Assembly: GCA_009928955.1 (NCBI GenBank)
Contig: SABN01000003.1
Coordinates: 1 to 64,000 of the forward strand
Length of the DNA: 64,000 nt
Origin: Opitutia bacterium
Lineage (GTDB): Bacteria > Verrucomicrobiota > Kiritimatiellia > CAIQIC01 > Lenti-01
Reading direction: 5' to 3'
The notes under the pieces are model-generated. The model saw nothing but the letters and a program-made list of their open reading frames with translations. It searched no databases and was not told the origin of the DNA. The position numbers were made by a program, and so were the translations under genes. This document shows positions 45,371 through 53,446 of this stretch, piece by piece (positions within the stretch are counted from its first letter, which is position 1; the number at the start of each line of letters is the position of its first letter).

Positions 45371-46069
45371 ATGAGCGCATCCCTGACCATCGTGCTGTTG
45401 AGTTTGCTGAGCGGCGCGCTGTTCGCCGGCCTGATCCTGGCCCTGCGCCGGAAGGGCGGCGGCAAGAAAGGCATGGAGATCCGCGCCACGGCCGCCATCG
45501 AGGAGCTGAAGGCCATTGGCGTGCTGTCCGTGTTCAAGGCGGTGACGAAGGAGATCGTGACGGCACGCGACCATTCGCTCGGCGATCTCGGCAAGCGCTA
45601 CCTCGAATGGCTGATCACGTCGAAGAAGATGGCGATGATCTTCGAGTTCGACATCGACTTCCAGTACGACCTGCGCGATCCGTCGTTCACGGTGCAGGCA
45701 GACGGTCCCGGCCGCTACCGCCTGCAGATGCCGCGCTGCGACTACGTCGTCCACGTGCGCAACGTGACCTTCTACGACGAGCAGGGCGGCAAGCTCCTGC
45801 CCATCATCCTGCCCGACGTGATCAACAAGATCCTCGGCGGCGGATTCAACGAAGTGGACCGCAACAAGCTGATGGAGGAAGCCAAGGCGCAGGCCGGGGC
45901 GCTCGCGGAAAACCTCGCCCGCCGCCTCAGCTCCGAAGTGCAGACCTCCGCGCGCCAGACGATGGAGATGCTGGCCAAGAGCTTCGGCGCGGCCGCCGTC
46001 CGCGTGATCTTCCCCGACACCGCGCCCCACAAGGCGCAGGTCGTCGAAAGCGCCGCCGCCGCGACCTGA
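45371..46069 (+). CDS. DUF4230-like membrane-anchored protein
   Basis: N-terminal TM, KAVTKEIVTARDHSLG...FEFDIDFQYDLRDPSF; family assignment from memory. Confidence 0.55.
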   Translation: MSASLTIVLLSLLSGALFAGLILALRRKGGGKKGMEIRATAAIEELKAIGVLSVFKAVTKEIVTARDHSLGDLGKRYLEWLITSKKMAMIFEFDIDFQYDLRDPSFTVQADGPGRYRLQMPRCDYVVHVRNVTFYDEQGGKLLPIILPDVINKILGGGFNEVDRNKLMEEAKAQAGALAENLARRLSSEVQTSARQTMEMLAKSFGAAAVRVIFPDTAPHKAQVVESAAAAT

Positions 46070-46106: not shown

Positions 46107-46236
46107 AAAAGTTTTCCACACTGTGGAAAACTTTTTTCCACACCGTGGAAAAACCGGGCAGTTTTTTCCACACCGTGGAAACTTTTTTTCCATTGCGTGG
46201 AAAAACCCTGAAAAAGTTTTCCATTGCGTGGAAAAC
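46107..46236. repeat. cluster of five TTTTCCA-N(1-5)-TGGAAAA palindromes in convergent intergenic region
   Basis: AAAAGTTTTCCACA-C-TGTGGAAAACTTTT 46107-46135; TTTTTCCAC-ACC-GTGGAAAAA 46133-46153; TTTTTTCCACACCGTGGAAAC 46162-46182; TTTTTCCA-TTGCG-TGGAAAAA 46185-46205; GTTTTCCA-TTGCG-TGGAAAAC 46216-46236. Confidence 0.95.
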
Positions 46237-46238
46237 TG

Positions 46239-46619
46239 TCAGGTCCGGTCGTTTTCCAGTTCCCGGATGCGCGCTTTCAGGCGGCGGTTTTCCTCGGCCA
46301 GCGCTGCTGCGCTCGTTGGCGCGGGGGGCGGTTGCTCCTCCGCGATGCAGTCGTCCGTGAGATAGACGCCGCTGAACATGGCGGTCTTCACGTGCGCCCG
46401 GTGCAGGCGGCCGTGCTCGTCCCGGTAGGTGATCCGGTAGATCCGCGAATCCTTCTCGCCGGACCAGCCGGGGCCGAAGGGCTCCCAGCTGCGGTCGACG
46501 AGCTCCCAGCCGCGTTCGCGCAGATAGCGCTCGACGCGCTCGCCGTCGATGGAGCCCGCCATCAGCCGGATCACAATGATCAGGAGGATGAAGCCGATGA
46601 AGATGGCGGCGGGTTCCAT
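46239..46619 (-). CDS. small membrane-anchored protein with C-terminal coiled coil
   Basis: MEPAAIFIGFILLIIVIRLMAG..., AALAEENRRLKARIRELENDRT. Confidence 0.6.
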   Translation of the reverse strand: MEPAAIFIGFILLIIVIRLMAGSIDGERVERYLRERGWELVDRSWEPFGPGWSGEKDSRIYRITYRDEHGRLHRAHVKTAMFSGVYLTDDCIAEEQPPPAPTSAAALAEENRRLKARIRELENDRT

Positions 46620-46621
46620 GG

Positions 46622-48340
46622 CTACCGTTCCTTGACGAGGCGGAAGCCGTTGGCGGGGACGCGGAGGGGGCCGGCGGGAAGATCTTCGCCGGTCCAGAGG
46701 TCGCAGGCGGGGCGGGGCAGATCGATTTCCGCGTCTGCGCTTCCCTTGTGGATGGCGCAGACAATTTTTACGCCGTCGAGTTCGCGTTCGAAGACGAGCG
46801 TGGCGTCGTCGGGCGCGGGGAGCCAGCGGAAGGCGCCGCGCCGGAGCGCGGGTTCGGCGTGCCGGAGGGCGATGAGGCGCTGGTAGAAGGCGAAGAGGTC
46901 CAGATCGGGGTTGCGCGGGTGGGGCGCGAGGAGCGGGGCGCGGAAGCCTTGCGTTTCGTCTTCGTAGGCGAGGTCGCTCCAGAGCATGGGCTGGCGGTCG
47001 CAGGGATCGTTGGCGCCCCACATGCCGACTTCGGTGCCGTAGTAGAGCATGGGGGCGCCGGGGCCGGCGAACTGCCAGGCGGCGGCCATCTTCAGCGCCT
47101 GCTTGGCATCGGGGCCGGGGCGGTGCGTCTTCAGCGCGGGATTGTCGGCGGCCTTGGGCCAGTTGAAGTAGGCGTCCCACGAGGTCGGCGGCGGGCAGGC
47201 GCTTTCGAGCAGCGTGAGGATGCGGCCGGTGTCGTGCGAATCGAGCAGGTTCTGCATGATCAGATTGCTGCCCGGCTCGTGGCGCGCGTGGAGGGCGTCG
47301 ATGCGCGCGCGGAATTCGGCGGCGCCGATGGCGGCGGGGTTGGTGGTGAAGAAGGCGAGGGTGGGATAGGTCCACTCGTAGTTCATGACGGCGGAGAATT
47401 CGTCGGGCCGGATCCAGTCCTGGGCGGGGCCGACGATTTCGCCGGTGGTGTAGGCCTCGGGATTGATCGCACGCACATGCGCGTGCCATTCGCGCCAGAA
47501 GCCGTGGGGCACGCAGTAGGCGACGTCGAGCCGCCAGCCGTCGACGCCTTCGGACGGGCGGCCCCGGCCGGAGGGGTCCATCCAGCGGCGGGTGGCATCG
47601 AAGATGTACTGCTTGATGCCGGGGTTGAGGGTGTTTTCGTCGCGCCCGAAGTTGGGCAGGCTGCCGCCGCCGTCCCAACTGGCATGCTCGAAGGTGCCGT
47701 CCTCGCCCCACTTCGCGATCTGGTACCAGTCGGCGTAGCGGGAGGCGCGGCCGTTCTTCTTCAGGTCCTGGAACGCGAAGCAGCGGGTGCCGGAGTGGTT
47801 GAAGACGCCGTCGAGGATGAGGCGCATGCCCCGCGCATGGACGTCGGCCACCAAATCCAGAAAATAGCGGTCGGCGGCGGTCCAGATCCAGGTGGCGGGA
47901 TCTTCGGTCTCGTGGGCGGCGGCGAGCGCGGCGAGGTCGCCTTCGCGGTCGGGACCGAGGGTGGGGTCGATGTGGTGGTAGCAGGTGGCGTCGTACTTGT
48001 GCAGGGAGGCGGCCCAGAACACCGGGTTCAGGTAGAGCGCGTTGATGCCGAGCTGCTGCAGGTACGGGAGCTGTTCGCGCAGGCCGACGAGGTCGCCGCC
48101 GAAACGGCGGTCGAAGACGGTGCCCCAGAAGTTGTGCTGCTTGGGGCGTTCCCATTCGTCACGGCCGTACCACTCCATGCCCCAGGGGGAGACGCGCCAG
48201 CCGGGGATGCGCTCGCCGCCGAAATCCTCGGGGCGCGGGTCGGATTGCGGCGCGCCGTTGCGGAAGCGCTCGGGGAATACTTGGTACCAGACGGCGTCCT
48301 TGGCCCAATCGGGCGAGGCGGGGGGATTTTGTTGATGCAT
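46622..48340 (-). CDS. GH13 alpha-amylase family glycoside hydrolase
   Basis: GH13 regions DGVFNHSG, GWRLDVAYC, EIVG, LDSHDTGR; WAKDAVWYQVFPERFRNG. Confidence 0.92.
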   Translation of the reverse strand: MHQQNPPASPDWAKDAVWYQVFPERFRNGAPQSDPRPEDFGGERIPGWRVSPWGMEWYGRDEWERPKQHNFWGTVFDRRFGGDLVGLREQLPYLQQLGINALYLNPVFWAASLHKYDATCYHHIDPTLGPDREGDLAALAAAHETEDPATWIWTAADRYFLDLVADVHARGMRLILDGVFNHSGTRCFAFQDLKKNGRASRYADWYQIAKWGEDGTFEHASWDGGGSLPNFGRDENTLNPGIKQYIFDATRRWMDPSGRGRPSEGVDGWRLDVAYCVPHGFWREWHAHVRAINPEAYTTGEIVGPAQDWIRPDEFSAVMNYEWTYPTLAFFTTNPAAIGAAEFRARIDALHARHEPGSNLIMQNLLDSHDTGRILTLLESACPPPTSWDAYFNWPKAADNPALKTHRPGPDAKQALKMAAAWQFAGPGAPMLYYGTEVGMWGANDPCDRQPMLWSDLAYEDETQGFRAPLLAPHPRNPDLDLFAFYQRLIALRHAEPALRRGAFRWLPAPDDATLVFERELDGVKIVCAIHKGSADAEIDLPRPACDLWTGEDLPAGPLRVPANGFRLVKER

Positions 48341-48360
48341 AACGATGGCGGGGGGGGGGG

Positions 48361-48849
48361 CTGGAGGGATCCTGTGGCGGAGCAGAGCGATTTGAGCCAA
48401 GCAAGATAGGCGGGGGCCTTGGGGTCGCCTTCGGGCGGTGCGAAGGCGGCTTTTTCGGCCGGTACGAGGGGGACATAGGGGCCGGCCTTGGCCTCAAAGA
48501 AGAGGGTGCCGTCTTCGAGGGCGATCCACGTGTGGAACGTATTGTAGGGCACATCGGCGACTTGGCCGGGATGGAGAATTGAGGCGGAGAGTACTTGGCC
48601 GGCGTCATCAAAGATGACGGCCCCAAGTTTGCCGCGGAGGAGGACGAGGGATTCATCCTTAGAGGGATCCATGTGGCGGTGGGGTTGGACGTAGGTGTCG
48701 GCGCAGAGGGCGTTGAAGAAGCGCTGGCAGGGATAGTTGGGGCTGGCGTGGAGGTTGAAGTTTTTGCGGCGGCGGGGCGACGCGGCGGCCTCGGCGGCGA
48801 GGCGATCGAGAAAGGCATCGTCGAGAATGCGGATGGGGGGCGGGTTCAT
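48361..48849 (-). CDS. WbuC-type cupin fold protein (no in-frame stop before GH13; 3' end uncertain, ORF track extends to 48028)
   Basis: RRKNFNLHASPNYPCQRFFNALCADTYVQPHRHMDPSKDESLVLLRGKLGAVIFDDAG; domain ends at the C11 tract. Confidence 0.72.
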
Positions 48850-53414: not shown

Positions 53415-53446
53415 AAAAAGTTTTCCACGGTGTGGAAAAACTGCCA
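53415..53446. repeat. sixth copy of the TTTTCCAC-N3-GTGGAAAA palindrome, upstream of dusB
   Basis: AAAAAGTTTTCCACGGTGTGGAAAAACTGCC; reverse complement matches the 46161 copy context GGCAGTTTTTTCCACACCGTGGAAACTTTTTT. Confidence 0.93.

Follow-up and report, generated by a model that had tools for sequence, protein, structure and literature searches.

Interspersed palindromes are usually explained as REPs mobilised by RAYT transposases or as RNA terminators. Dispersed palindromic sites outside promoters also serve chromosome-organising proteins such as ParB/Noc, SlmA and MatP, and the specificity of Noc-type proteins can switch. Phased operators and iterons are multi-site protein-binding arrays in which the sites are spaced at integral helical turns, the contact bases are conserved and the linkers are free. 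REPs are extragenic and lie near gene 3' ends (PMC3733652), and the spacers of REPINs are less conserved than their ends, which are held at a set distance (PMC3116915).

In this study, the palindromes of a 64-kb window (the whole stretch of DNA that was analysed, 64,000 nucleotides) and of related genomes are compared with these systems. The best explanation, to which we assign a probability of slightly below one half, is that they constitute helically phased arrays of dyad double-stranded DNA sites for a putative lineage-specific, dimeric and sequence-specific protein. The study is based on MAG assemblies, pattern-based ascertainment of the palindrome arms and few orthologous comparisons.

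The palindrome array and its distribution

A sequence-only reading of the window had reported five palindromes, centred on positions 46121, 46143, 46173, 46195 and 46226 with spacings of 22/30/22/31 bp, beside a DUF4230-like gene on the + strand; all five are present as claimed and the neighbouring gene indeed matches PF14014 (Table 1). The first was correctly described as a perfect palindrome of 29 bp, its extended form comprising arms of 14 nt with 1 nt between them. The description of conserved arms around a variable centre also holds, with the successive five-base cores CACTG, CACCG, CACCG, TTGCG and TTGCG and a single arm mismatch, located in copy 3. The array reads S-22-S-30-S-22-A-31-A, where S and A denote symmetric and asymmetric cores and the numbers are spacings in bp. 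A search of the window with a relaxed pattern, allowing a centre of 3-7 nt, recovered four of the five array copies as well as a sixth at 53421, and all six were recovered when the pattern was shortened by one base per arm. Dinucleotide shuffles of the window (n=100) yielded no match to the relaxed palindrome pattern, and a chance origin of the window palindromes is excluded.

Table 1. Coordinates of the palindromes, linkers and neighbouring genes in the window
Feature	Position	Strand	Sequence or match	Remarks
DUF4230 protein gene	45371..46069	+	PF14014, E 1.4e-10	
Palindrome 1	core 46112-46130, full 46107-46135		TTTTCCA-CACTG-TGGAAAA	Symmetric type (S)
Linker	46131..46133			3 nt; spacing 22 bp, ~2 helical turns
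Palindrome 2	46134..46152		TTTTCCA-CACCG-TGGAAAA	Type S
Linker	46153..46163		ACCGGGCAGTT	11 nt; spacing 30 bp; joins sub-modules
Palindrome 3	46164..46182		TTTTCCA-CACCG-TGGAAAC	Type S; the one arm mismatch is the final base C
Linker	46183..46185			3 nt; spacing 22 bp
Palindrome 4	46186..46204	+	TTTTCCA-TTGCG-TGGAAAA	Asymmetric core type (A); orients the array
Linker	46205..46216		ACCCTGAAAAAG	12 nt; spacing 31 bp, ~3 helical turns
Palindrome 5	46217..46235	+	TTTTCCA-TTGCG-TGGAAAA	Type A; direct repeat of palindrome 4
126-aa ORF	46239..46619	-		Without Pfam match; N-terminal hydrophobic stretch; adjoins the array
Alpha-amylase family gene	46622..48400	-		Next gene of the junction
Sixth, isolated copy	53421..53439		TTTTCCA-CGGTG-TGGAAAA	Between two + strand ORFs

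The stop codon of the 126-aa ORF lies 3 bp beyond the end of palindrome 5, and no counterpart of this ORF was detected at the corresponding junction of five congeners. The palindromes translate to the repeated peptides FHTVE, FSTVWK and FPRCGK in several frames (46145-46360, with other ORFs over 46107-46237), and spurious ORFs over 46107-46237 are likely in automatic annotation. Additionally, contigs C36, C67, C75, C97 and C109 of the window assembly start within about 500 bases of arrays, which suggests that the repeats break the assembly. Masking of the arrays in the annotation of Kiritimatiellota MAGs may be worthwhile, since spurious ORFs are possible and several contigs end nearby.

The window assembly, a Kiritimatiellota MAG of 3.42 Mb in 345 contigs (90% complete, 7.9% contamination), contains 271 perfect copies of TTTTCCA-N5-TGGAAAA and none of the reversed control pattern, a genome-wide excess over what composition would give. 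The centre measures 5 nt in every copy listed. The single TTTTCCA palindrome occurs in every genome tested in the window's order, at 1 to 720 copies (a range of more than 100-fold). In a survey of 196 genomes across the phylum, the two-site array with a spacing of ~31 bp was present in all ten genomes of the order, in nine of 54 from the rest of the class and in none of 132 from the rest of the phylum. A two-palindrome scan of public genomes gave, among the matches listed, Kiritimatiellae, 'Lentisphaerae', 'Verrucomicrobia', one 'Spartobacteria' and further MAGs. Phage and plasmid collections held no match to the window array, and the palindromes matched no family in Rfam. The suggestion that the family was previously undescribed agrees with the open-access papers searched, in which no description of such repeats was found for names beginning with Kiritimatiell.

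Spacing, linkers and turnover of the arrays

The symmetric cores of the window genome include CACTG and CGGTG, the asymmetric cores are TTGCG/TTGTG (denoted 'a' when reversed), and the commonest module is S-22-S-30-a-31-a-22-S, or parts thereof. With regard to the inverted doublet and spacer that form the replicative unit of a REPIN, pairs at a fixed distance are present, but arrays of three to five units are common; in the window's genus (family f1) the asymmetric cores are direct repeats, with a consistent orientation inside 31-bp pairs. The linkers of 30-bp spacings in this genome carry a GGGC/GCCC core, which is a loose consensus, and those of 31-bp spacings carry a TCGCGAAAA-like core. 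The mean pairwise identity of f1 linkers is 0.57-0.68 (0.33 when shuffled), and their partial conservation means that modules have also been copied within the genus. In family f2 (genomes G017 and G020), where the palindrome is TTTTCCAAGGCTTGGAAAA-like, the linkers are essentially random in sequence, with an identity of 0.33-0.39 as against 0.32-0.34 for shuffled linkers; 149 of 160 adjacent spacings, degenerate second copies included, nevertheless measure 30-32 bp. Linker similarity was near random in G021 and weak in G018 and G019.

Three turns of B-DNA correspond to 31.5 bp, and 22 bp to about two. Second sites at ~30-31 bp gave 1914 matches over ten genomes (both strands summed) as against 31 for six shorter spacings of <30 bp, most of the latter being at 28-29 bp in G011 and G014. 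These two genomes display a minority spacing of 29 bp beside that of 30-31 bp, and phase tolerance may thus differ among genera. Neighbouring copies that had not been used as search seeds lie at 22 or 30-32 bp, and their mismatch frequency is about 0-6% per site in the inner arm and up to 18% at the outermost T/A. A simple model of DNA curvature was set aside on theoretical grounds: T- and A-tracts, both inside a unit and from one unit to the next, are ~1.5 turns apart, so that their bends should cancel.

Conservation of site and spacing around a free linker, as in a phased array, is seen in f2, and in f1 with linkers that are partly conserved. The sequence-only reading had offered a dimeric regulator site as one option, and the nearly invariant arms, the free centre and the lack of half-site enrichment fit it better than a RAYT-mobilised REP. 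It is preferred here because the spacing of about two or three turns is kept despite random linkers and because no strand bias of the RNA type is present. A dimer would contact each palindrome via both of its conserved arms, and the five bases at the centre would stay mostly free; adjacent dimers bound along the same helix face would fix the spacing at about three turns (30-32 bp), and in the TTTTCCA family also at about two (22 bp). We infer the existence of the binding protein, its cooperative binding and a barrier or structural role at gene ends. Genomes mostly have one protein of the ParB/Noc type or none, and these proteins do not track the palindrome; a ParB/Noc paralogue as the partner finds no support, as no extra paralogue follows the motif.

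The DUF4230-amylase junction itself lacks palindromes in five congeners, in which the genes there abut or nearly so. Neither of the outcomes by which the sequence-only reading could have been refuted occurred: copies are in genome-wide excess and are present in all sampled relatives of the order, although those of this particular junction are missing from congeners. The window genome and G001, which are about 83% identical at the nucleotide level, could be compared at seven sites, of which two are occupied in both, four in the window genome alone and one in G001 alone, so that presence or absence is clean, with one congener occupied, at five of the seven. At one of the shared sites an a-31-a-22-S module is nearly identical, including its linkers, and an additional S-22-S-30 module is found in the window genome only.

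Furthermore, relatives carry different palindromes. Genome G006, of the window's genus, has 133 copies of TTTTACGT-NNA-ACGTAAAA (a pattern also given as TTTTACGT-NNA-ACGTARAAA) but only 16 TTTTCCA copies; all 48 of its listed array spacings are 31, 32 or 62/63 bp, and the units inside one array share their orientation. G004 has 13 copies of the TTTTACGT type beside 179 TTTTCCA copies, and none was found in the other 24 genomes searched. Another genus carries TTTTGCCAA-N3-TTGGCAAAA, and G007 carries 162 copies of TTTTGCCA-N5-TGGCAAAA, which is absent from the other genomes searched, indicating that both arms changed together. The usp-parA junction is empty in the window genome and holds a TTTTCCA pair in G001, a TTTTACGT pair in G006 and a pair of another palindrome in G004, from which it follows that one junction can host different families. 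Site sequence is replaced genome-wide between congeners with the array geometry retained; under the protein-binding reading, a changed specificity of the partner would replace the whole genomic set of sites and keep the geometry.

The palindrome at the G004 usp-parA junction (L292), ACTGTTTTATAAAACAAT, occurs there twice, about 58 bp apart, and in seven copies genome-wide. The G004 palindrome TGTTTTATAAAACA was rejected as a large family, having 0-7 copies per genome everywhere. The G006 family was found only via the orthologous junction; it had escaped a de novo search for palindromes in small samples taken from G006, G008 and G023. In the low-copy relative G023, the GC-rich palindrome GCGGGGCTTCCAGCCCCGC is present three times in a small sample (L253 4927-6715) and is possibly another extragenic family.

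Several of these features count against protein-binding sites. The sharing of two of seven orthologous sites and the wide range in copy number look more like a repeat population than a set of essential sites, the orientation kept by the cores of f1 pairs and by G006 arrays is needless for simple dimer sites, 22 bp only approximates two turns, and the partly conserved linkers of the window's genus imply that modules are copied as well. A close second, which we regard as possible though less probable, is a life history resembling that of REPs or REPINs, with extragenic palindromes that are self-propagating or non-autonomously mobile, clustered in BIME-like mosaics, being spread by a putative enzyme other than a RAYT; single-stranded DNA would be the form in which their hairpins are recognised, and the fixed spacing would reflect the transposition unit. 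Gain and loss at clean junctions and the copying of f1 mosaic modules (S22S-30-a31a-22S), whose linkers are partly conserved, fit this well, as do the 1 to 720 copies per genome, the species-specific families, the extragenic placement near gene 3' ends known from published REPs, and the conserved ends, less conserved spacers and set distance that REPINs likewise possess. Random linkers at a fixed spacing of ~3 turns, and arrays whose 3-5 units are joined by differing linkers, are however unlike copied units.

The GTAG/CGTC tag of REPs is also absent: GTAG is found in 0-3% of palindrome flanks as against 4-7% of random positions in four genomes, and CGTC is at or below the random level in three of the four (19% versus 16% in G020). 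The number of Y1 transposase genes does not correlate with palindrome copy number (Spearman -0.35, p 0.09), and two of 38 Y1 loci (114 kb examined) hold a copy. Association with a RAYT (TnpA_REP), a check proposed by the sequence-only reading, is thus rejected, since the Y1 genes lack flanking palindromes and their counts are uncorrelated. Of the REP/BIME-like character that it had suggested, the genome-wide extragenic mosaic family arranged in sub-arrays stands, and membership of the RAYT-mobilised REPs is not supported. Two Y1 (TnpA-type) genes of the window genome (L021 871-1905 and L022 1432-2472) have GGGGTCAG/GACCCC inverted ends of the form GGGGTCAS, which are unrelated to the palindromes and fit the motif GGGGWSAS described for the ends of the TIRYT transposase class by Di Nocera and colleagues (PMC3733652). 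The protein-binding and mobiliser readings are not exclusive, because a mobiliser, too, binds DNA in a sequence-specific manner.

Placement at gene ends and alternative signals

Genes were called with a simple codon model of our own making, which gives approximate results, weakest for the mixed named loci. The comparison of intergenic and coding copies found palindromes almost never in coding sequence, with clusters inside it in none of 21 cases in a first sample and in two of 32 in a larger sample examined with this crude gene caller. In f1, palindromes occur in 18 of 76 convergent, 48 of 291 tandem and six of 103 divergent gaps (convergent versus divergent, p 0.0007). Within the tandem gaps of f2, the distance from the upstream stop codon to the first copy has a median of 10-13 nt, and this copy is closer to that stop than to the following start (13 v 58 nt, p 0.0008). 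The arrays lie chiefly at the 3' ends of genes and in convergent gaps; if they bind a protein, they would probably act as nucleoid-structuring sites or bidirectional barrier/insulator sites rather than promoter operators.

This placement, i.e. the short distance past the stop codon in f2 and the f1 preference for convergent over divergent gaps, would also suit RNA elements in the form of transcribed 3'-UTR hairpins that act as bidirectional terminators or mRNA stabilisers, and the folding energy of the 29-bp palindrome, which is followed by a T run, is -13.8 kcal/mol. Most single stems are weak, however (-5 to -10 kcal/mol), the f2 gap classes do not differ (p 0.14), divergent gaps carrying palindromes as often, and helical spacing has no obvious meaning for RNA. 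Departures of the G.U and A.C kinds were equally frequent on the sense strand (58 v 49 and 55 v 54), so that pairing of a transcribed strand is not favoured, and no consistent signal of complementarity between the palindrome and intrinsic terminators was found. We consider RNA elements an unlikely explanation.

Known signals such as tags resembling DNA-uptake sequences, clusters of DnaA boxes or CRISPR-like elements are a highly improbable explanation. TTTTCCACA resembles a DnaA box, a match that is lost in the variants TTTTCCAAGG, TTTTGCCAA and TTTTACGT. Uptake sequences can also occur as inverted pairs at gene ends; isolated half-sites are at expectation (90 v 81, 111 v 118, 31 v 29 and 32 v 27), and the uptake-sequence reading was rejected since single half-sites are not over-represented. 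For a CRISPR the arrays are too short and too dispersed.

Significance and comparison with known systems

The window's order harbours palindromes in their hundreds that pass neither the RAYT-REP nor the RNA-terminator test and that keep a near-integral helical spacing. Should the partner be a DNA-binding protein, they would represent an undescribed genome-marking or barrier system; should it be a mobiliser, a REP-like family outside RAYT; and under either reading they offer a short and precise target for a pulldown. On a more tentative note, they may belong to a clade-specific chromosomal system of the Kiritimatiellia in which a specificity-switching DNA-binding protein marks gene ends with helically phased palindrome arrays, the entire genomic set of its sites being rewritten upon a change in its specificity (TTTTCCA to TTTTGCCAA or TTTTACGT) with the geometry of ~3 turns kept.

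Like REP, BIME and REPIN elements (PMC3733652, PMC3116915), these are short extragenic palindromes of tens to hundreds of copies, found close to the 3' ends of genes and in convergent gaps, grouped in mosaics and divided into species-specific families with large differences in copy number. Unlike REPs, they combine a near-perfect short dyad with a free centre, have neither a GTAG/CGTC tag nor a RAYT, and are locked to a spacing near two to three helical turns with linkers that are random in f2. Intrinsic terminators share the position after stop codons and the dyad symmetry, whereas the stems studied here are AU-rich, mostly without a U tract of their own, arrayed and free of a sense-strand pairing bias. 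Similar to the sites of ParB/Noc, SlmA and MatP, the palindromes are dispersed outside promoters, although they are far more numerous and are arrayed. They share with phased operators and iterons a spacing of whole helical turns, the conservation of the contact bases and the freedom of the linkers; they differ from these in that each genome has hundreds of such arrays, most of them at gene ends, and in that the site sequence is replaced wholesale between congeners.
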